This document shows, piece after piece, positions 166 to 12,249 of a stretch of DNA of 64,000 nt. The notes beneath the pieces are model-generated. The model did no database searches, was not told where the DNA came from, and worked only from the letters and a program-made list of their open reading frames with translations. This DNA is from Piscinibacter sp. GTDB taxonomy: Bacteria > Pseudomonadota > Gammaproteobacteria > Burkholderiales > Burkholderiaceae_C. The stretch lies in the NCBI GenBank assembly GCA_017983795.1, contig JAGOAS010000023.1, forward strand, positions 1 through 64,000, in the 5' to 3' direction. Position 1 is the first letter of the stretch, and the number at the start of each line of letters is the position of its first letter. The position numbers and the translations under genes were made by a program.

Positions 166-1575
166 TCAAGCCACCGTCGCGCGCAAGCTCGCTTCCAGCA
201 CGAGGCCCGGTCGCTGCTCGCCGGGCCTCGCTGCCTTGAGCACCAGGTCCCCACCGAACGCCCACACGCGCTCCTTGATGCCCGCCAGCCCATTGCCGCG
301 TCGCAGCGCGGCCTGCGCATCGGCGAGGCCGACGCCGTCGTCGGCCACCGACCACTGCATCGCCTCGCTGCCCTCGGGCCAGCGCAGCGTGATGGTCACC
401 ACGCTCGCGCCGGCGTGGCGTGCCACGTTGGTCAGCGCCTCCTGGCTGATGCGGTACAGCGCCAGCGCGAGCTCGCGCGGCATGCTGCGATCGCGCGCGG
501 CCTCGATGGCGAGTTCGACGCGCAGCGCGCCGCTGGCACTGCGGCGCCAGCCTTCGGCGAGGCCCTGCAGCAGTTCGGCCAGCGTGACCACGCTCACCGC
601 GCCCTCGCCCGGCTCGACGCCGGCCAGCGGCTGCAGCCGCGCCAGCAGGCCGCGCACGTCGCCCTGCACGGCGGCGCATTGTTCGAGCATGCCCTGCACG
701 ACCGGTTGCACGTCGGGCAGATCCTTCAGCCGCTGTGCGAGCCAGGCCGCGTCGACGCGGATCGCGGTGAGGCGCTGGCCGAATTCGTCGTGCAGCTCGC
801 GCGACAGGCGCATGCGCTCCTCCTCCTGCAGCGACTGCACCTTGTGGCCGAGCAGGCGGCGCTCGGCCTGGGCCGCGTCGAGCGCCGCGCCGAGCGAGCG
901 CAGCGCGGCGGCGATCTGCTCGAGCTCGCCGATCGGCATGGTGGGCATGGCGCGCGCCGCCGCGGTCTCGCCGGCCTGGATGCGCCCGATCGCGCTGAGC
1001 ATGCCCTCCAGCGGCCGGAATGCCGAGCGCACGTTCCAGCGCAGCACCACCAGCATCACGATCAGGCCCGCCACCAGCACGCCGAGCAGGCTGCCGAGGT
1101 AGACCACCGCCTCGCGGCGCTCGCTGTCGGGCTGCGCGGCCAGCGTGAGGATCCACGGCAGCTTGCCAGGGCGCGGCAGCATCCAGGTCACCGGCTCGAT
1201 GGCCAGGCCAGGCCGCCAGCGCCGGTGCCAGTCGGTCAGCGTCTCCACCACGATGGAGTTCGTGGGCTCGGGCAGGCGGCCGACGATCAGGCGGCCGGTG
1301 CCGTCGCGCAGCGAGAGCGAGAGGTGGCGCAGCGGCGTCTCGTCGTCGCGCGCGGCGAGCACGGCCACCAGCTGCGCATCGCTCAGCTCGCCGGCGCGCG
1401 CCAGGCGCTCCATGGTCGCGGCCAGCGACATCGCGGCGCGCACCTCGCCGTCGATGTCGGCATCGGTGCGCGCGAGCCCGAGCGCGATGGCCGCGAGCAG
1501 CGTCAGCGCCGCCACCGCGAGCGCGCGCCGCATCACGCGGCGCGGCAGGTCGAGCGGAACGCGCGCTGAGCTCAC
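166..1575 (-). CDS. NarX/DegS-type sensor histidine kinase
   Basis: Membrane sensor kinase of 469 residues. One membrane segment lies at about 14-36, a periplasmic sensing region at about 37-155 and a second membrane segment at about 158-180, followed by a HAMP-like linker. The HisKA_3 phospho-acceptor box reads RELHDEFGQRL with His262. A HATPase domain follows with an N box (ALTNVARHAGA) and G boxes (VADDGVGL, GNGLAGIKERV). This class normally phosphorylates a NarL/LuxR-type response regulator, but none is in the window. Start is GTG at 1575, 7 nt after the stop of the preceding exported-protein gene, so the two are probably co-transcribed. Its place downstream of a PQQ dehydrogenase suggests, as inference only, a role in controlling alcohol oxidation, as kinases do next to exaA in pseudomonads. 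Confidence 0.9.
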   Translation of the reverse strand: MSSARVPLDLPRRVMRRALAVAALTLLAAIALGLARTDADIDGEVRAAMSLAATMERLARAGELSDAQLVAVLAARDDETPLRHLSLSLRDGTGRLIVGRLPEPTNSIVVETLTDWHRRWRPGLAIEPVTWMLPRPGKLPWILTLAAQPDSERREAVVYLGSLLGVLVAGLIVMLVVLRWNVRSAFRPLEGMLSAIGRIQAGETAAARAMPTMPIGELEQIAAALRSLGAALDAAQAERRLLGHKVQSLQEEERMRLSRELHDEFGQRLTAIRVDAAWLAQRLKDLPDVQPVVQGMLEQCAAVQGDVRGLLARLQPLAGVEPGEGAVSVVTLAELLQGLAEGWRRSASGALRVELAIEAARDRSMPRELALALYRISQEALTNVARHAGASVVTITLRWPEGSEAMQWSVADDGVGLADAQAALRRGNGLAGIKERVWAFGGDLVLKAARPGEQRPGLVLEASLRATVA

Positions 1576-1582
1576 CGCCGCT

Positions 1583-2275
1583 TCACAGGTCGTACCAGGC
1601 CAGCCCCAGCACGATGCCGCTGCCGCGCAACTCGTCGCTGCGCACGCGCTGCCAGGCGATGTCGAGCGCCAGACGCTCGCGCTTGATCCAGTGGCGCACG
1701 CCGGCGTGCAGCAGCCGGCCCTCGCGATCGCGCGCGGCTTCCGCGAACAGCGAGGTGCGCCGCCACACCTCGCGCTCGGCGGCGATCACCCCGGTGAAGA
1801 CGCGGCGCTCTTCCTTCGGCTTGGCCACGCCGAGGTTGAGGTGCAGGAGGCTCTTGCTCGCCTCGTCGAGCTGCAGCGTCAGCGGCAAGCTCAGCGAGGT
1901 GGCGGCATGCGTCCAGGGGCCGCCCTCGGGCCGCTCCATGTCCAGCGCCAGCACCACGCCCCAGCCCCAGCCCTCGCGCGCGATACGGTTGAACAGGTGC
2001 TTGAACTCGATCTCGATCTCATGGCCGTTGCCGCGGTCGCGGTCGAGCACGCGGCGGAATTCGGCCTGCAGCGAGTTGTCGGGGCTGAACGCGTATTCGG
2101 GCGCGATGGTGAAGCTCTTCTGGTGCCCGGCCTGGCGGACCCAATTTTCCACCGCCCAGACCTGCTCCTCGTCCTCCTCGGCGGCGCCGCTGTTGGCGAC
2201 GATGTAGGGGCGGTCGGCCGCGCGGCAGGCGATGGCGAAGACAGCGAGGCACAGGGCGAGGAGGAATCGGCTCAT
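1583..2275 (-). CDS. Unrecognised exported protein
   Basis: Protein of 230 residues that I do not recognise. A clear Sec signal peptide (MSRFLLALCLAVFAIACRA, cleavage near residue 20) is followed by a soluble or beta-rich region with alternating charged and hydrophobic residues, as in small outer-membrane or periplasmic proteins. The ATG at 2275 was chosen because it places the signal peptide at the N-terminus; a longer in-frame extension would bury it. The gene lies between a quinoprotein dehydrogenase, with a terminator between them, and a sensor kinase 7 nt downstream. A role in sensing or envelope support for the kinase is possible but unproven. Confidence 0.7.
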   Translation of the reverse strand: MSRFLLALCLAVFAIACRAADRPYIVANSGAAEEDEEQVWAVENWVRQAGHQKSFTIAPEYAFSPDNSLQAEFRRVLDRDRGNGHEIEIEFKHLFNRIAREGWGWGVVLALDMERPEGGPWTHAATSLSLPLTLQLDEASKSLLHLNLGVAKPKEERRVFTGVIAAEREVWRRTSLFAEAARDREGRLLHAGVRHWIKRERLALDIAWQRVRSDELRGSGIVLGLAWYDL

Positions 2276-2434: not shown

Positions 2435-4174
2435 TCACTTCATCAGCTTGAACACCCACACCGAGCCGCCTTGCTCGAGGTAGTTGACCTTCTTGGCCAC
2501 GTCGCCGCCCCACAGCGGCACCGCACCGCCCCAGCCCGAGACCACAGCGACGAACTGCTCGCCCTTGTCTTCCCAGGTGATCGGGGGCGCGACCACGCCC
2601 GAGCCGGTCTGGAACTTCCAGACGATCTTGCCGGTCTTGGCGTCGGCGGCCTGCAGGAAGCCTTCCGGCGTGCCCCACCACACGAGGTTGCCGCCGGTGG
2701 TCAGCACGCCGCCCCACAGCGGCGCGTTGTTGGGCGCTTCCCAGACGATCTTGCCGCTCTTCGGGTCGATGGCGCGCAGCGCGCCGATCGGGCCGTCGGA
2801 GAGCGTCTTGATCGTGAAGCCGGCGCCCAGGTAGGCCGCGCCCTTCTTGTAGGTGATGGGCTCGTTCCAGATCTCCATGCCCCACTCGTTGGACGGCACG
2901 TAGAACAGCTTGGTCTCCGGCGAGTAGGCCATCGGCATCTGGTTCTTGCCGCCCAGGAAGCTCGGCGCGGCGAACACCGATTTGCCCTTGGCCGCATCCG
3001 CACCCGCGGTCGGGTCGCCCGGGCGGTTCTCCGGCACGTAGTTGGGCCGGCCGGTCTTCAGGTCGATGCCGGTGGCCCAGGTGATCTTCTTGACGAAGGG
3101 GAAGGCGTTCTCGAGCTTGCCGTTCTTCGCGTCGATCACGTAGAAGAAGCCGTTGCGGTCGGCCTTGCCGCCGAGGATCTTGCCGCCGTCCTCGTAGGTG
3201 ACGAACTCGTTGACGCCGTCGAAGTCCCAGCCGTCGTTGGGCGTGGTCTGGTAGTGCCAGACGATCTGGCCGGTCTTCACGTCGATGGCGACGGTGGAGC
3301 AGCTGAACAGGTTGTCGCCCTTGCGCAGGTGGCTGTTCCAGGGCGCCGGGTTGCCGGTGCCGAAGTAGGCGAGGCCCGTCTTGGCGTTGTAGGTGCCGCC
3401 CAGCCAGGTGGCCGCGCCGCCGGTCTTCCACAGGTCGCCCGGCCAGCTCTTGCCGGCCGTGCCGGAGATGCCGTTCTCCTTCTTGTTGCCGTCCTTGTCG
3501 AAGGTGTAGCCCATGTGGCCTTCCACCGTCGGGCGCACCCAGACCAGCGCGCCGGTCTTGGGGTTGCGCGCCTCGACGCGGCCGACGATGCCGAACTCGC
3601 CGCCGGACACGCCGGTCAGCAGCAGGCCATTGGCGATCAGCGGCGCGGCCGAGGCGGAGTAGCCGGCGGCGTAGTCGTCGATCTTCTCCTTCCACACCAC
3701 GTCGCCGCTCTTCTGGTCGAGCGCGACCAGCTGCGCGTCGAGCGTCGCGAAGATCACCAGGTTGTCGTACAGCGCGGCGCCGCGGTTGATCACGTCGCAG
3801 CAGGGCATGATGCCGTCGGGCAGGCGGTGCTCGTACTTCCAGAGCTTCTGGCCGGTCTTGGCGTCGAGCGCGTAGAGGCGCGAGTACGAGGCGGTCACGA
3901 ACATCACGCCGTCGTGGATCAGCGGCTGCGATTCCTGGCCGCGCTGCTTCTCGCCGCCGAAGGAGAACGACCACACCGGCGTGAGGCGGCCGATGGTCGA
4001 GGCATTGATCTGCTTGAGCGGCGAGTAGCGCTGGCCCTGCTGGCCGATGCCCCAGGAGACGACGTCGCCCGGGGTCTTCGCGTCGTCTTCGATCATCTTG
4101 TCGGTCACCGCCGACTGGGCACTCATCGTGCCCAGCGCCAGCGCGACCCAAACGGTCAGTTGCTTGATTCGCAT
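2435..4174 (-). CDS. PQQ-dependent alcohol dehydrogenase, lanthanide (XoxF/PedH) type
   Basis: Periplasmic quinoprotein of 579 residues that oxidises primary alcohols and passes electrons to a c-type cytochrome. The signal peptide ends near SAQSA (residue 22). Eight-bladed propeller features are present, with repeated AxDxKTGK..W tryptophan-docking motifs. The adjacent cysteine pair is C125-C126 (PCCDVINRG). Metal-ligand regions are SGGEFG (Glu193) and GTGNPAPWN, and the active-site motif is NDGWDFDG with Asp317 and Asp319. The second Asp, two residues after the catalytic one, is the published hallmark of lanthanide-dependent enzymes; calcium MxaF has Ala there. The start has a strong GAGGAG ribosome site. 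No cytochrome or PQQ synthesis gene is nearby, but relay genes lie just upstream. The alcohol substrate cannot be read from sequence. Confidence 0.93.
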
Positions 4175-4406
4175 CCTTGTCTCCTCGAGGGTTTGAGAGA
4201 TCCGGGAAGCGGACGCCTGCCGCTCCTCCGGCTATCGCTTGGGCAACATGCGTGCCAGTGGCCGGGGCGGGCGGAAACGCCGCTGCGGGGCCCGGATCCC
4301 GCCCCGGCTTCAGGGTTTCCCCCGCGCGTTGTGCCAGCGCGGAGCAGTCTTCCCGCGTCGCGCTGACACAGGCACACTCAGCCCGTTTTCCGAATGGGAG
4401 CACACC
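4175..4406. promoter_or_regulatory. Divergent intergenic region between quinoprotein and tail-tube genes
   Basis: A 232-bp gap between divergent genes that must carry promoters for both directions. I see the ribosome site of the dehydrogenase (GAGGAG just before 4174) and of the tail-tube gene (GGGAG at 4396-4400), but no convincing -35/-10 pair. Confidence 0.4.
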
Positions 4407-4859
4407 ATGGCCACGCAGCGCGAGCGCCCCTACAACCGCTTCAACTTTCTCGTCGACCTGGGCGACGGCAACACCGAGGGCCCCGACGCCGGCTTCGCCG
4501 AGGTCAGCGGCCTCGGGATGCAGCTGGAGGTGATCGAATACCGCAACGGCAACTCGCGCGAGAACGAGCCCATGAAGATCACCGGCCTGGCGCGCGTGGG
4601 CGACGTGACGCTGCGCCGCGGGCTGATCGGCTCGCTCAAGCTCTACCACTGGATCAACCAGATCCGCAACGGCGACACCAACGCGCTGCGCACCGTCACC
4701 ATCCAGCTGCAGAACGAAGACCACACGGCGACCGTGCAAACCTGGAAGCTGCTGCGCGCGCGCATCGTCAAGCACGTGAGCGGCCCCTTCAACGCCAAGG
4801 GCGGCGACGTGGCGATGGAAGAGATGGTGCTGGCCTTCGAGCGGCTGGAGCTCGAATGA
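4407..4859 (+). CDS. Phage tail tube-like protein (T4 gp19/TIGR02241 type)
   Basis: Protein of 150 residues in the conserved phage-tail-region family that includes inner-tube subunits of contractile tails and of extracellular contractile injection systems (Afp1/Pvc1-like). Family features are the N-terminal PYNRFNFLVDLGDG, the FAEVSGLGMQLEVIEYRNG segment, the R..GLIGSLKLYHWINQIR region, and a C-terminal EEMVLAFERLELE strand. The ATG at 4407 has GGGAG 6 nt upstream. It overlaps the next gene by 4 nt. No sheath, baseplate, spike, ATPase or lysis gene is in the window, so this is an orphan tube pair here. It could be a relic of a particle locus or have been recruited for another job. Confidence 0.85.
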   Translation: MATQRERPYNRFNFLVDLGDGNTEGPDAGFAEVSGLGMQLEVIEYRNGNSRENEPMKITGLARVGDVTLRRGLIGSLKLYHWINQIRNGDTNALRTVTIQLQNEDHTATVQTWKLLRARIVKHVSGPFNAKGGDVAMEEMVLAFERLELE

Positions 4860-5266
4860 GCGGCCAGGACGCGCGGCCCGTGATTGGCAACCATTTCCGC
4901 GTCGAGATCGTCGACGGCAACGGCCACGCCACGGAAGTCGGCTGCTCGGAAGTGGTATTTCCCGCGCTGGCCGTGCACGCCGATGCGCAATCGCCGCCGG
5001 CCGAGGAACGGCTGGTGCTGCGCCGCGCCGCCAACGGCGACCGCGTGCTGCACGACTGGTGGGCCAAGGCCTGCAACGGGCGTGCGCCGCGGCGCCGCAG
5101 CGTGCGCGTGACCCTGCTCGCGCCCGACCACGAGCGCGCCGTCAAGCGCTGGCGCTTTCGCAACGCGCGGCCGACGAGCCTGCACTACTCGCCGCTGGAC
5201 GCGATGGGCAATGCGCTGGTGATGGAGTCGCTGGCGGTCGCCTTCGACAGCGTCGAGATCGAGTAG
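4856..5266 (+). CDS. Second tail tube-like protein (gp19/TIGR02241 type)
   Basis: Protein of 136 residues and a divergent paralogue of the preceding gene: NHFRVEIVDGNGHATEVGCSEV aligns with its strand-strand start, and a C-terminal MESLAVAFDSVEIE aligns with its EEMVLAFERLELE end. It has more basic residues in the middle (RAPRRRSVRV) than its partner. The start ATG overlaps the upstream stop (ATGA at 4856-4859), so translation is coupled. In injection systems two or three tube paralogues are usual, one often forming the tube tip or baseplate link; that role is inference. It ends only 4 nt before the convergent hydrolase gene. Confidence 0.75.
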   Translation: MSGQDARPVIGNHFRVEIVDGNGHATEVGCSEVVFPALAVHADAQSPPAEERLVLRRAANGDRVLHDWWAKACNGRAPRRRSVRVTLLAPDHERAVKRWRFRNARPTSLHYSPLDAMGNALVMESLAVAFDSVEIE

Positions 5267-5270
5267 TCGG

Positions 5271-6224
5271 TTAGGGCGTGCCGCCCTTCAGCACCGCGCG
5301 CTCGTAGCGCGGATAGAGATGCGCCACGTTGCGCGTGTACTCGGTGCCGAAAGCGGCCCAGGCGCGAAACTCGGCCGGCACCTCGCTGCGCAGCACCTCG
5401 TTCATCTCGGCGCCCTGCTCCGCCAGCTGGCGGAAGCGGCCGTCGATCCACTGCAGGTAGCGCTGCGTCTGCCCCACCGCGCTCGCATCCGCGCGCACCG
5501 GGCCGTGGCTGGGCACCAGCGTCTTGACGGGCAGCGCGGCGAAGGCGCGCAGGCTCTGCAGCCAGGGGCCCACCTGCGCATGCGGCGTGGTCGGGATGCG
5601 CTGCGCGAATACCAGCCCGCCGGCGAACACCACACCGCTGGTCTTGTCCACCAGCACCAGATCACTGTCGGTGTGGCCGCGGTACTCGCGCAGCTCCATG
5701 TCGCGGCTGCCGATGTGCAGCGGCCCGAGCGCCACGGTGCCGGTGGGCAGCACCGCCTCGGTGCCGCGCATCCAGTCGCCGCACAGGCGATAGAGGTTGT
5801 CTTCGTAGGCCTTGGCCTCGCGCGCCATGCCGGCGCGCGTGGCATCGGTGGCCAGGCGCGGCACGTCGGCAAACGCCTGGTTGCCGAGGAAGTAGTCGGG
5901 GTGCAGGTTGAGGTGGATCACCTGCACCACCGGCTCGCTCGTGGTCTTGGCGATCAGCGCGCGCAGCTGCTCGCCGTAGCGCCTGGACGGCCCCGTGTTG
6001 ATCACCAGCACGCCGCTGCCGGTGGCGATGAAGCCGGTGTTGATGATGTTGCAGCCGTTGGCCGGCGTGAAATCGGCGTTGGCGCCCTCCACCACCCACA
6101 CGCCGGGCGCCAGCGCGCGCGCCGCCAGGCCGTAGTCGAGCCGTCCCAGGTCGACGCGCGGCGTGCCCTGCGCGAGCGGGTTGGCGAAGGCGGCCAGCAG
6201 CAGCGAGGCGAGCAGCGCCTTCAT
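5271..6224 (-). CDS. Quinoprotein relay-type metallo-beta-lactamase-fold hydrolase
   Basis: Exported protein of 317 residues (signal MKALLASLLLAAFANPLAQG) with a metallo-beta-lactamase fold. It resembles the family annotated as quinoprotein relay system zinc metallohydrolase 1, related to SoxH. Metal-site regions are NLHPDYFLGN, the RGHTDSD loop and LVPSHGPV. The first motif lacks two of the usual histidines of HxHxDH (Asn and Tyr instead), so metal loading may differ. The start ATG at 6224 overlaps the stop of the SoxYZ-like gene by 4 nt (ATGA), which ties the two functionally. The substrate is unknown; family context suggests a sulfur-linked step that accompanies PQQ dehydrogenases. Confidence 0.82.
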   Translation of the reverse strand: MKALLASLLLAAFANPLAQGTPRVDLGRLDYGLAARALAPGVWVVEGANADFTPANGCNIINTGFIATGSGVLVINTGPSRRYGEQLRALIAKTTSEPVVQVIHLNLHPDYFLGNQAFADVPRLATDATRAGMAREAKAYEDNLYRLCGDWMRGTEAVLPTGTVALGPLHIGSRDMELREYRGHTDSDLVLVDKTSGVVFAGGLVFAQRIPTTPHAQVGPWLQSLRAFAALPVKTLVPSHGPVRADASAVGQTQRYLQWIDGRFRQLAEQGAEMNEVLRSEVPAEFRAWAAFGTEYTRNVAHLYPRYERAVLKGGTP

Positions 6225-7006
6225 TCGATGCGCCCGTCGATGCGGTTGCCGTTGTTGTCGGTGCCAGTGAGGCGCAGGCCGCCGGCCACCCGGCCGGGGA
6301 AATCGAAGCTGAATACCGGGTTCTCGCTCACCGGCTCGAAGGTGGCCAGGCGCAGCAGCTCGCGGCCCTGCTCGTCGCGCACGGCGAGCCTGTTGACGTA
6401 GAAGGCCGGAATGCCGCCGACCAGGCCGGTGTCCATCGGGTGCATCACCATCACGCGCAGCCGCGAGGCGTTCTCGCCGCCCACCGGGCTGCTGGCGAAC
6501 AGCTTGCCGCGCGCCTGGCCCAGCGTCTGCGTCCAGCTGCCGTCCTTGCGCGTGGCGCCGGACACGGTGCAGCCGCCGCCCGACGAATCGACCTGCGTGC
6601 CGCCGACGTGCCAGACGCCGTCTTTCGTGCGCGCCGCGGCGCGCACCGGGCTGGCCTGCTCGAGCTTGAAGCGCAGGCCCAGGCTGGCGAGCGTGGCCAG
6701 CGGCTGGTACTCGAGCACCTTGCGGATCGGGTTGCGGTCGACGAAGACGACGATGGTCTCGACCTCGGGCAGGCCCAGCGCCGAGACGCTGATCGGCACG
6801 TTCATCGGGTCCTCGGCGAAGGCCGGGCCGCGCACCTGCACGCGCTCGTCGAACACCACCTTGGCCGTGCCGAAGAACTCGCGCTTCAGGTCGGGCCATT
6901 GCAGCGAGCCGAAGGGGTCGTCGAGCGCATCGGCGTGGGCGGCGCCGCACGCGAGGTTCGCGGCGAGCAGGGTCAGGACGGCACGGCGGCTCGGCATGCC
7001 CGGCAT
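6221..7006 (-). CDS. Quinoprotein dehydrogenase-associated SoxYZ-like carrier
   Basis: Exported fusion protein of 261 residues. The N-terminal signal contains SRRAVLTLL, a Tat-like twin arginine as in SoxY, and ends near HADA. A SoxY-like domain (about 30-160) carries Cys146 in SSGGGCTVSG, the counterpart of the SoxY swinging-arm cysteine. A SoxZ-like domain follows (about 165-261, ending FDFPGRVAGGLRLTGTDNNG). In Sox systems the cysteine carries sulfur intermediates; in this subfamily the partner is a quinoprotein dehydrogenase and the cargo is not established. It is translationally coupled to the downstream hydrolase. The ATG at 7006 was chosen; the ATG at 6997 is also possible. Confidence 0.82.
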   Translation of the reverse strand: MPGMPSRRAVLTLLAANLACGAAHADALDDPFGSLQWPDLKREFFGTAKVVFDERVQVRGPAFAEDPMNVPISVSALGLPEVETIVVFVDRNPIRKVLEYQPLATLASLGLRFKLEQASPVRAAARTKDGVWHVGGTQVDSSGGGCTVSGATRKDGSWTQTLGQARGKLFASSPVGGENASRLRVMVMHPMDTGLVGGIPAFYVNRLAVRDEQGRELLRLATFEPVSENPVFSFDFPGRVAGGLRLTGTDNNGNRIDGRIE

Positions 7007-7077: not shown

Positions 7078-7518
7078 TCAGCCCAGGGAGTCGTTCACCT
7101 GCTCGTTGAACTCGGCCAGGCTCACCGCCGCGCCGATCTCGCGCGGCATCGCGTCGCGCGCCGAGAAGACGCCGAGCAGGGTGTTGCCCTCGCCGACCAC
7201 CGGCAGGTGGCGGAAGCCGCGCTCGAGCATGATCAGCACGGCGTCCTCGACCTTGGTATTGGGGCCGATGCAGCGCGGGTTGGGCGTCATCACGCCGGCC
7301 AGCGTGGTCTTGGACGGATCGACCGCCTTGGCGAGCACGCGCGTCATCAGGTCGCGCTCGGTGACGATGCCCAGCAGCTGCGTGCCCGCGCCCACCACCA
7401 GCACGCTGCCGCAGTTGGCGCGCGTCATCACGCAAGCGGCCTCGTGCACGCTGGCGCTCGGCGGCAGGCTCACGAGCAGCCGACGCGGCATCGACTGGTA
7501 CACGGTGCGTTGGGTCAT
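7078..7518 (-). CDS. CBS-domain pair protein
   Basis: Cytosolic protein of 146 residues made of two CBS repeats: about 10-65, with LLGIVTERDLMTRV, and about 75-130, with LLGVFSARDAM. Such pairs bind adenosyl nucleotides (AMP, ATP, NAD) and act as regulators. A very strong ribosome site (GAGGAGGAG) precedes the ATG. It follows the oxidoreductase beta subunit gene by 26 nt in the same direction and is likely the last gene of that operon. That suggests energy- or NAD-status control of the enzyme; this is inference. Confidence 0.88.
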   Translation of the reverse strand: MTQRTVYQSMPRRLLVSLPPSASVHEAACVMTRANCGSVLVVGAGTQLLGIVTERDLMTRVLAKAVDPSKTTLAGVMTPNPRCIGPNTKVEDAVLIMLERGFRHLPVVGEGNTLLGVFSARDAMPREIGAAVSLAEFNEQVNDSLG

Positions 7519-7544
7519 GGCAGCTCCTCCTCTGGCGCGCGGCT

Positions 7545-8596
<1,052 letters not shown>

Positions 8597-8600
<4 letters not shown>

Positions 8601-10414
8601 GCGAATTCCTTCTTCCAGACCGTCGCCTTGCGGATCGCGCCGGCGATGAAGCGTGCGGTGATCGGCGTGCCGTCGAAGTGCAGCACGCGCACCAGCTTGG
8701 CGGGGTCGACGCCGAGTTCGTTGACGAGCAGCGTCTGCATCTGCCCGTCGCGGTTCTGCTCGACCACGAATACCTTCTCGTGCGCCGCGATGAACTCCGG
8801 CACCGAATCCGGGAAGGGGAAGGCGCGCAGCCGCATCGCGTCGAGCATCACGCCCTCGTGCGCGAGCACTTCCAGCGCCTCGTGCATGGCCGGGCTGGTC
8901 GAGCCGAAGTAGATGACGCCCAGGCGCGTCGGCTTGGCCGCCGGGTGCAGCACCGGCTGCGGCACCAGCGCGGCCGCGGTGCGGAACTTGCGCAGCAGCC
9001 GCTCCATGTTGTAGATGTAGTCGGGGCCGCGCTCGGAGTAGCGCGCATAGGCGTCGCGCGTGGTGCCGCGCGTGAAGTAGGCGCCCTTGCTCGGGTGCGT
9101 GCCGGGCAGCGTGCGCCAGGGGATGCCGTCGCCGTCCACGTCCTTGTAGCGGCCGAAGTCGCGGCCGGCCTCGAGCTCTTCGGCGCTCATGACCTTGCCG
9201 CGGTCGTAGGCGCGCGCCTCGTCCCAGGCGAAGGGCTCGCACAGGCGCTGGTTCATGCCGATGTCGAGGTCGGTCATCACGAATACCGGCGTCTGCAGGC
9301 GGTCGGCGAGGTCGAGCGCCGCGGCGGCATGCTCGAAGCATTCGTGCGGGTCTTCCGGCAGCAGCAGCACGTGCTTGGTGTCGCCGTGCGAGGCATAGGC
9401 GCTCGACAGCAGATCGGCCTGCTGCGTGCGCGTGGGCATGCCGGTGGAGGGGCCGCCGCGCTGCACGTCGATGATGGTCACCGGGATCTCGGCGAAGTAG
9501 GCGAGGCCGATGAACTCCGTCATCAGCGAGACGCCCGGGCCCGAGGTCGCGGTGAAGGCGCGCGCGCCGTTCCAGCCGGCGCCGACGACCATGCCGATCG
9601 AGGCGATCTCGTCCTCGGCCTGCACGATGGCGAAGCGGTGCTGGCCGGTGGCGGGGTCGACGCGGTATTTCTCGCAGTATTTCTGGAACGATTCGGCCAC
9701 CGACGACGAGGGCGTGATCGGGTACCAGGCCGCCACGGTCGCGCCGCCGTACACGCAGCCGAGCGCCGCGGCGGAGTTGCCGTCGACGAAGATGCGCTCG
9801 CCCACCTTGTCGGCCCGGCGCACGCGCAGGCCGACCGTGAGGCCGCTGGCCGTCGCCCAGTCGCGCCCGAGGTTCAGGGCCTGCACGTTCGCGCCGAGCA
9901 GCCGCTCCTTGCCGCGGTACTGCTCGGCGAAGAGCTTCTCGAACACGCCCACGTCCATGTCGAGCAGCACCGACAGCACGCCGACGTAGATGATGTTCTT
10001 GAACAGCTGGCGCTGGCGCGGATCCGCATAGGCCTGGTTCGCGATTTCCGTCAGCGGCACGGCGATCACCTGCACGTCCTCGCGGAAGGCGGCCGGCGGC
10101 AGCGCGCGCGTGCTGTCGTAGAGCAGGTAGCCGCCGGGCTCGATCTCGGCCACGTCGGCGTCCCAGGTCTGCGGGTTCATCGCCACCATCATGTCCACGC
10201 CGCCGCGCCGGCCCGACCAGCCGCTCTCGCACACCCGCGCCTCGTACCAGGTCGGCAGGCCCTGGATGTTGCTCGGGAAGATGTTGCGCGGCGCCACCGG
10301 CACGCCCATGCGGATGACCGCCTTGGCGAACAGCTCGTTGGCCGAGGCCGACCCCGAGCCGTTGACGTTGGCGAACTTGATGACGAAATCGTTGACCGCC
10401 TCGATGCGCTTCAT
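8597..10414 (-). CDS. korA: 2-oxoacid:acceptor oxidoreductase, fused gamma-alpha subunit
   Basis: Subunit of 605 residues. The N-terminal gamma domain (about 1-190, FANVNGSGSASANELFAKAV and RRGGVDMMVAMN) is fused to the alpha domain (about 215-600, with AAWYPITPSSSVAE and ATSGPGVSLMTEFIG). The gamma-alpha fusion is typical of 2-oxoglutarate and related oxidoreductases of aerobic or facultative bacteria. It overlaps the preceding flavoprotein gene by 4 nt (ATGA) and the following beta gene by 4 nt (GTGA). Stoichiometric coupling of all three is therefore likely. Confidence 0.92.
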
Positions 10415-12249
10415 GCAGTGACTTTCGGCTGGTTCGGGGCATCGGCGGTGGCGTCGCGGCAGCGCGGCCCCGCCTGCGTGGTGTGCAGCAGCATCTTCTG
10501 CATGTCCCAGGCGCCGGTGGGGCAGCGCTCGGCGCACAGGCCGCAGTGCAGGCAGACGTCTTCATCCTTCACCATCACGCGGCCGCTCTTCAGCGAGGTC
10601 GAGACGTAGAGATCCTGCGCCAGGTTGGTGGCCGGCGCCTTCAGCCGCGTGCGCAGGTCGGCTTCCTCGCCCGGCGCGGTGAAGGTGATGCAGTCCATCG
10701 GGCAGATGTCGACGCAGCCGTCGCACTCGATGCAGGTGTCGCGGTTGAACACCGTCTGCACGTCGCAGTTCAGGCAGCGCTGCGCCTCGCGCCAGGCGGT
10801 GGCTTCGTCGAAGCCGAGCTCGACCTCGATCTTGATGCTCTGCAGCGCCCGCTCGGCCGCCGCCCAGGGCACCTTGTTGCGCGCGGCGATCGAGATGTCG
10901 TTGTCGTAGCTCCACTCGTGGATGCCCATCTTCTGCGACATCAGGTTGGCATGCGCCACCGGGCGCGTGGCCGGGTCTTCGCCGTTGAGCAGCCGGTCGA
11001 TCGACACCGCGGCCTCGTGGCCGTGCGCGACGGCGGTGATGATGTTCTTCGGGCCGAAGGCCGCGTCGCCGCCGAAGAAGACGTTGGGCAGCGTCGATTG
11101 GTGCGTGCTCGCGTCGAGCACCGGCAGGCCGTGCTTGTCGAAGCTGATGCCGCAGTCGCGCTCGATCCACGGGAAGGCGTTCTCCTGGCCGATCGCCACC
11201 AGCACCGTGTCGGCGGCGACGAACAGGTCGGGCTCGCCGGTGGCCACCAGGCTGCGCCGGCCTTTCGCGTCGTACTCGGCCTTGACGCGCTCGAACTCCA
11301 TGCCGCTGAGCCTGCCACCTTCGTGCACCACGCGCCGCGGCACCAGGAAGTTGTGGATCTCCACGCCCTCGTGCAGCGCGTCTTCCTTCTCCCAGGGCGA
11401 GGCCTTCATCTCGTCGAAGCCGCTGCGCACGATCACCTTGACGTCCTTGCCGCCCAGGCGCTTGGCCGAGCGGCAGCAGTCCATCGCGGTGTTGCCGCCG
11501 CCCAGCACGATGACGCGCTCGCCCACGCTCGAGACGTGGCCGAAGGAGACCGAGGCCAGCCAGTCGATGCCGATGTGGATGTGCGCTGCGGCCTCCGCGC
11601 GGCCCGGCACCTCGAGCTCGCGGCCGCGCGGCGCGCCGCAGCCGACGAAGACGGCATCGAAGCCGTCGCGCAGCACGCCGCGCATCGAGTCGACGCGCTG
11701 GCCGCTGCGGAAGCTCACGCCGAGGTCGAGCACGCGCTGCGTCTCCTCGTCGATCACCGACTCGGGCAGGCGGAACTTCGGGATCTGCGAGCGCATGAAG
11801 CCGCCGGCCTTGGCCTCGCCCTCGTAGACAACCACCTCGTAGCCGAGCGGCGCGAGATCACGCGCCACCGTCAGCGAGGCCGGCCCCGCGCCGATGCAGG
11901 CGACGCGGCGGCCGTTGGGCGCGGCGCGCACGGGCAGGCGGCCGTCGAGATCGCCCTTGTGATCGGCCGCCACGCGCTTCAAGCGGCAGATCGCCACGGG
12001 TTCGGGCTTGTCGCCGTTGTTCTCCTCGACGCGGCCGCGCCGGCAGGCGGGCTCGCAGGGTCGGTCGCAGGTGCGGCCGAGGATGCCGGGGAAGACGTTC
12101 GACACCCAGTTGATCATGTAGGCGTCGGTGTAGCGGCCCTGGGCGATCAGCCGGATGTATTCCGGCACGGGGGTGTGGGCCGGGCACGCCCACTGGCAGT
12201 CGACGACCTTGTGGAAGTAGGCCGGACCGGCTCGATCGGTGAGTTGCAA
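10411..12249 (-). CDS. korC: NAD(P)/FAD/FeS oxidoreductase subunit (GltD-like, KorC type)
   Basis: Protein of 612 residues. An N-terminal cysteine-rich FeS domain (CQWACPAHTPVPEYI; GRTCDRPCEPACRRG) is followed by an FAD-binding Rossmann motif (VACIGAGPASLTVA) and an NAD(P)-binding motif (VIVLGGGNTAMDCC). Two C-terminal 4Fe-4S motifs are CIECDGCVDICP and CLHCGLCAERCP. It looks like the small subunit of glutamate synthase with extra ferredoxin domains. It probably links the 2-oxoacid oxidoreductase to NAD(P), as in the three-subunit 2-oxoglutarate:NADP oxidoreductase described in the Azoarcus/Thauera group. It is first in the operon, and its stop overlaps korA. Confidence 0.88.
   Translation of the reverse strand: MQLTDRAGPAYFHKVVDCQWACPAHTPVPEYIRLIAQGRYTDAYMINWVSNVFPGILGRTCDRPCEPACRRGRVEENNGDKPEPVAICRLKRVAADHKGDLDGRLPVRAAPNGRRVACIGAGPASLTVARDLAPLGYEVVVYEGEAKAGGFMRSQIPKFRLPESVIDEETQRVLDLGVSFRSGQRVDSMRGVLRDGFDAVFVGCGAPRGRELEVPGRAEAAAHIHIGIDWLASVSFGHVSSVGERVIVLGGGNTAMDCCRSAKRLGGKDVKVIVRSGFDEMKASPWEKEDALHEGVEIHNFLVPRRVVHEGGRLSGMEFERVKAEYDAKGRRSLVATGEPDLFVAADTVLVAIGQENAFPWIERDCGISFDKHGLPVLDASTHQSTLPNVFFGGDAAFGPKNIITAVAHGHEAAVSIDRLLNGEDPATRPVAHANLMSQKMGIHEWSYDNDISIAARNKVPWAAAERALQSIKIEVELGFDEATAWREAQRCLNCDVQTVFNRDTCIECDGCVDICPMDCITFTAPGEEADLRTRLKAPATNLAQDLYVSTSLKSGRVMVKDEDVCLHCGLCAERCPTGAWDMQKMLLHTTQAGPRCRDATADAPNQPKVTA

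Follow-up and report, generated by a model that had tools for sequence, protein, structure and literature searches.

The quinoprotein locus at the start of a Piscinibacter contig raises the question of which metal its alcohol dehydrogenase uses and how far the surrounding genes form a functional unit with it. The stretch analysed here (hereafter the window) covers the opening 64 kb of contig C2 (JAGOAS010000023.1) of a 4.24 Mb genome that is 99.7% complete, and its element of interest is a pyrroloquinoline quinone (PQQ)-dependent dehydrogenase accompanied by two helper genes, one encoding a SoxYZ-like carrier and the other a hydrolase of the metallo-beta-lactamase (MBL) fold. Most likely this is a PedH-type locus of Piscinibacter-like Burkholderiales, serving lanthanide-dependent alcohol oxidation with the helper pair in an accessory role. 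The arrangement is mostly a known one, a PedH-type locus with its known helper pair, to which a few unusual local twists are added. The three core genes are the following:

2435-4174, minus strand: predicted PedH-type PQQ alcohol dehydrogenase, 579 amino acids (TIGR03075, PDB match and alignment)
5271-6224, minus strand: MBL-fold "quinoprotein relay system zinc metallohydrolase 1" (TIGR04558)
6221-6997, minus strand: fused SoxYZ-like carrier with a GGGC motif (Cys143) (TIGR04557)

The Dehydrogenase and Its Relatives

The dehydrogenase matches TIGR03075 with 742.9 bits against a cut-off of 480. In a phmmer search of the PDB, its top matches were the PedH structures 6zcw and 6zcv (828 and 827 bits), with ExaA (1flg) at 653 bits and XoxF chains at 352 (4mae), 350.5, and 347 bits. 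Asp317, Phe318, and Asp319, which a preliminary description of this DNA had singled out as a lanthanide hallmark, are read exactly in the 579-residue frame, and alignment to 6zcw gives E193, N275, D317, and D319 as the predicted metal ligands, the same set as in PedH. These four residues and the adjacent cysteines C125 and C126 are all identical to PedH (6/6 checked), and ExaA departs from the dehydrogenase at D319 alone, where it has Ser. The same description had set Asp-x-Asp against the Asp-x-Ala of calcium enzymes; the first half of that contrast stands, but the nearest calcium enzymes, those of the ExaA type, carry Asp-x-Ser. The ExaA (PedE) type belongs to the same methanol/ethanol family and shares the Glu, the Asn, the first Asp, and the Cys-Cys pair, but differs by the Ser at the D319 position and by forming a separate, fully supported group.

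That grouping comes from a 38-row tree (IQ-TREE), in which the 11 Asp-x-Ser rows cluster together (100/100), as do the XoxF rows (100/100), with the window dehydrogenase outside both clusters. This enzyme groups with other Asp-x-Asp (PedH-type) rows, its nearest neighbor being that of Piscinibacter aquaticus (92%); the named close relatives belong to Piscinibacter and other Sphaerotilaceae. Branch order among the Asp-x-Asp rows is open in this tree, so the description "closest to PedH" rests on score. The motif WD[F/Y]D is kept in 88/88 ortholog rows (middle residue Phe in 76 and Tyr in 12), a set in which the window itself and some repeated genomes are counted and which amounts to 73 distinct cores; its Asp-x-Asp is therefore not a chance occurrence in the window. 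Neighboring paralogs in other species, at ~50% identity (five rows, four distinct loci), have Asp-Phe-Ser.

For PedH of Pseudomonas putida, the available part of one report describes an enzyme that is inactive under the conditions used for the calcium enzyme PedE and requires lanthanides, being active with La to Sm and weakly with Gd and Tb (PMC5487730). The lanthanide (PedH) type originally proposed for the window enzyme is borne out by its closest solved relative, its ligand set, and its tree placement, which together support its assignment as a predicted PedH-type lanthanide enzyme.

The dehydrogenase query found three PQQ dehydrogenases in the genome, all with Asp-x-Asp. One is a separate XoxF-like enzyme on contig C16, 80% identical to that of Azoarcus KH32C and adjoined by cytochrome and XoxJ-like genes, the cytochrome being XoxG-like; the third paralog, on contig C8, occupies a very long branch of the tree. 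PqqE is encoded on another contig than the window, and the aldehyde dehydrogenase ExaC on contig C23, 3.1 kb short of its end. The xoxF cluster as fetched (L165, G000:C16:143000-162900) holds the cytochrome, the XoxJ-like gene, two SoxYZ-like genes, an MBL gene, and homologs of a regulator (47%) and a TonB receptor (42%), with pqqE nearby.

The Helper Pair

The SoxYZ-like and MBL-fold frames share a 4-base overlap, and both proteins pass the cut-offs of quinoprotein-associated families (223.9 bits against 140 for TIGR04557 and 409.2 against 300 for TIGR04558). The carrier contains SoxY and SoxZ domains, although it scores below the cut-offs of the true SoxY and SoxZ models, and its GGGC cysteine is kept in 29/29 homologs with a readable frame. 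An earlier view of the pair as a relay set of unknown biochemistry was right about the pair, which is the NCBI quinoprotein relay set, and about its biochemistry, which is indeed not known; the set had, however, already been named and discussed. The PP_2677-PP_2678-pedH trio is listed for P. putida in the available portion of PMC12997753, which suggests that the pair may serve maturation, disulfide formation, or the protection of PQQ.

Around the dehydrogenase, 80 related loci were examined, 67 of which had at least 2.5 kb of upstream sequence. Among these 67, the MBL gene lies no more than 4.5 kb away on the same strand in 25, and within 500 bp in 21 of them; the pair is divergent in L014 and ~6 kb away in L040. 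A complementary set of 27 loci with TIGR04558-type genes was drawn from 24 of the 25 genomes that exceeded the cut-off among 397 (the window's own being left out) and from three plasmids. Within the fetched stretches, 16 of these loci have an Asp-x-Asp dehydrogenase, five an Asp-x-Ser enzyme only, and six no PQQ dehydrogenase. This distribution indicates that the pair is a quinoprotein accessory and not a mark of lanthanide use. A lanthanide-specific pair was rejected on account of the Asp-x-Ser-only loci L106, L144, L147, L158, and L163; L144 also bears a PQQ-dehydrogenase-like frame farther away, its motif left unread.

The hydrolase itself deviates from the di-zinc HxHxDH motif, which is replaced by N106-x-H108-x-D110-Y111, while the further histidines H184 and H240 are kept. 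Among 57 aligned MBL rows, 37 have N-H-D-Y, one has D-H-D-Y (L050), and 18 have H-H-D-H; one misframed row (L005) was counted in neither motif class, and the two later histidines are conserved in 57/57. The N/Y form is found in the betaproteobacterial rows with readable frames (except L050), in Azospirillum, and in G367, and the canonical form in further rows, those of the Pseudomonas-like class included. Because 8/18 canonical copies adjoin an Asp-x-Asp enzyme (L140-L143, L145, L146, L148, and L150), the motif follows lineage rather than metal, and a tie between the N/Y form and metal type was rejected.

An AlphaFold model of the window hydrolase (predicted local distance difference test score 94.6) adopts an ordinary MBL fold whose nearest matches are 8d2z, 6uxu, and CphA. 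The last, a subclass B2 metallo-beta-lactamase, occupies Foldseek ranks 4, 6, 7, and 10 at no more than 19% identity, a likeness of fold only, from which no lactamase activity is claimed. In B2 (CphA-type) enzymes, Asn likewise replaces the first His.

Gene Order, Inserted Genes, and the Kinase

Four further frames complete the locus, of which the two gp19-like frames and the barrel gene had gone unmentioned in the preliminary description of its gene set:

4407-4859, plus strand: T4 gp19-like (tail tube) protein (Pfam PF06841)
4856-5266, plus strand: another T4 gp19-like protein (above the Pfam cut-off, below that of TIGR02241)
1583-2275, minus strand: predicted outer-membrane beta-barrel of 12 strands, with its start at 2275 (structure prediction)
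166-1575, minus strand: membrane sensor histidine kinase (HisKA_3)

On the minus strand, from 7000 down to 166, the order is SoxYZ-like, MBL-fold, PQQ dehydrogenase, predicted barrel, and sensor kinase. The plus-strand gp19-like pair stands between the MBL gene and the dehydrogenase and splits the cluster; a scan of 4100-5400 gave no promoter-like and two terminator-like sites (0.8 expected), a result that does not inform the picture. These two genes are the sole PF06841 matches in the genome, which has no match to the sheath family PF04984 at E ≤ 0.001, and on these grounds a role in a working injection system was rejected. The pair lies directly upstream of the dehydrogenase in five of eight genomes of the genus, and different genes fill that space in the other relatives examined. 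It is read as an orphaned, lineage-specific insertion. Related gp19-like copies in G434 and G531 lie amid long frames that resemble, by eye, sheath and baseplate genes.

The barrel gene, which stands between the dehydrogenase and the kinase, has no family match above cut-off at E ≤ 0.001; 14 full-frame homologs occur beside or near PedH-type genes. The kinase, whose presence near the dehydrogenase had been noted correctly, has two predicted transmembrane segments (approximately residues 14-37 and 154-184) with a periplasmic stretch between them. A kinase homolog (a match over 150 amino acids with at least 30% identity) occurs in 21/80 related loci, and in 8/80 homologs of the kinase, a LuxR-type regulator, and a TonB receptor are all found within the fetched flanks. 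The window holds no homolog of the LuxR-type regulator or TonB-receptor queries. Since it opens the contig, the gene past the kinase falls off the sequence; in the nearest single-contig relative (G005), the genes beyond the kinase are ExaC (932.8 bits, cut-off 900) and then a sigma-54 regulator.

Candidate Electron Acceptors

Neither PedF (Azospirillum query), PedG, XoxG, nor a high-potential iron-sulfur protein (HiPIP) has a homolog in the window, no CxxCH motif occurs in its 52 kept frames, and the HiPIP family PF01355 has no match in the whole genome. The PedF query, run on four stretches of this genome, gave a weak 34% match beside the C8 dehydrogenase only. (The PedF model is TIGR04494; TIGR03874 is a methanol-metabolism cytochrome model.)

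Among the 75 orthologous loci with at least 900 bp of downstream sequence, 21 have a HiPIP gene directly after the dehydrogenase, starting 68-209 bp past the dehydrogenase match. The genes at L020:9874-10188 and L064:9829-10119 are among these 21, and two examples reach 77 and 85 bits with PF01355, whose cut-off is 22. This slot is filled in the window by the barrel gene (orfX), and in the related loci it and HiPIP never occur together directly downstream. PedF homologs occupy the slot in Ramlibacter loci L076 and L082, and HiPIP and PedF both appear in the fetched stretches of L074 and L078, so the two are not mutually exclusive. HiPIP is encoded in 33 of 50 chosen genomes, including 12 of the 29 that have no adjacent gene. 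No literature pairing HiPIP with PedH or a PQQ-dependent alcohol dehydrogenase was found, and none of the papers listed by a broader search mentions HiPIP. The adjacent HiPIP is a possible alternative electron acceptor of the PedH-type enzyme.

A bolder and rather doubtful proposal joins these observations to the hydrolase: with two ligands of its first motif changed, the Burkholderiales/Azospirillum hydrolase might be a mononuclear or non-hydrolytic partner of the SoxYZ arm, and in many of these lineages the PedH-type enzyme might also pass electrons to a HiPIP encoded just downstream, in the place that PedF occupies at other loci. If true, this would define a branch of lanthanide-dependent alcohol oxidation distinct in both its accessory chemistry and its acceptor.

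A Model for the Locus and Its Alternatives

As a PedH-type enzyme, the dehydrogenase would be exported to the periplasm and there most likely oxidize short alcohols and aldehydes by means of PQQ and a light lanthanide ion held by E193, N275, D317, and D319. Electrons would leave via Cys125-Cys126 and reach a periplasmic carrier whose gene lies elsewhere. The presumably co-transcribed SoxYZ-like protein, with its one arm cysteine, and the MBL-fold protein would be accessory factors for this enzyme class; their most likely task is to maintain a working PQQ/disulfide site through the handling of reactive sulfur or disulfide bonds, in a role of upkeep rather than of participation in turnover. The computation establishes gene identities, residues, tree placement, and gene order; lanthanide use, export, and the accessory role are inferred. 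Several points weigh against this reading. Lanthanide use cannot be proven from sequence alone; the gp19-like pair interrupts the presumed operon; 42 of the 67 loci have no MBL gene in the upstream position, and thus the pair is not required beside the dehydrogenase; and transposon screens in P. putida, under conditions deficient in rare-earth elements, showed minimal effects of the helper genes, according to the part of PMC12997753 available.

The alternatives differ in which part of this picture they dispute. That the enzyme is an XoxF-type methanol dehydrogenase is highly improbable: XoxF has the same Asp-x-Asp, Glu, and Asn ligands, but its chains score 352 bits or less where PedH scores 828, the window enzyme falls outside the fully supported XoxF group, and the genome has its separate XoxF-like enzyme on C16. 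It is also very unlikely that the enzyme works equally well with calcium despite Asp-x-Asp. The tie between this motif and lanthanides does derive from members outside this betaproteobacterial branch, but PedH, with the same ligand set, is described as inactive under the calcium-type conditions of PedE (PMC5487730, available part).

Two further explanations, both unlikely, concern the neighboring genes. The SoxYZ-like and MBL genes could be genes of sulfur metabolism that adjoin the dehydrogenase by coincidence, as the SoxY and SoxZ domains of the carrier and the 6/27 pair loci that show no PQQ dehydrogenase in the fetched stretch might suggest; however, the remaining 21/27 do have one there, and both genes pass quinoprotein-family cut-offs, while scores for true SoxY and SoxZ stay under the cut-offs of those models. 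The preliminary description had gone further, to one complete, kinase-regulated unit of lanthanide alcohol oxidation. This idea draws on the kinase homologs in 21/80 loci, on the eight in which regulator and receptor accompany them, and on the control of pedH by PedS2/PedR2 reported for P. putida (PMC6115532, as far as available). Against it, opposite-strand genes divide the cluster, ExaC and PqqE are encoded on different contigs from the window, and the kinase in G005 precedes ExaC and not a regulator. As the window holds neither an acceptor homolog nor a response-regulator partner, nor a receptor homolog, the complete unit is unsupported.

Relation to Known Systems

The closest known counterpart of the PedH-type locus proposed here is that of P. 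putida KT2440, in which PedH (PP_2679) has the same metal-ligand set and, with PP_2677 and PP_2678, the same order of SoxYZ-like, MBL, and dehydrogenase genes. By the gene list in the available part of a review, the ped cluster also includes PedF, PedG, and the calcium enzyme PedE; PedF beside the dehydrogenase, a feature of that cluster, was not found in the window with the Azospirillum query, nor was a PedG match. The window differs further by its inserted gp19-like pair, by a genome in which the three PQQ dehydrogenases found are all Asp-x-Asp, and by the N-x-H-x-D-Y of its hydrolase, as opposed to H-x-H-x-D-H in the eight copies of the Pseudomonas-like class that adjoin an Asp-x-Asp enzyme, a set that does not include PP_2678. 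On plasmid AZO_p2 of Azospirillum lipoferum 4B (L105), the SoxYZ-like gene, MBL 1, and an Asp-x-Asp dehydrogenase stand in a row with the same N-x-H-x-D-Y motif; there, PedF and a PedG-like gene flank the trio and no genes are inserted.

Literature found on this Burkholderiales branch treats, in its available text, only XoxF (in Sphaerotilus; PMC13300288), and the present locus extends PedH-type enzymes and their helper genes to that branch. The motif change in the hydrolase and the HiPIP neighbor are the parts of the locus worth following, as testable handles on the function of SoxYZ/MBL and on the acceptor where PedF is not adjacent.

Beyond the carrier gene, at 7078-12249, the window continues with a CBS-domain protein and then with frames that resemble, by eye, a two-subunit 2-oxoacid:ferredoxin oxidoreductase and a ferredoxin-containing oxidoreductase.

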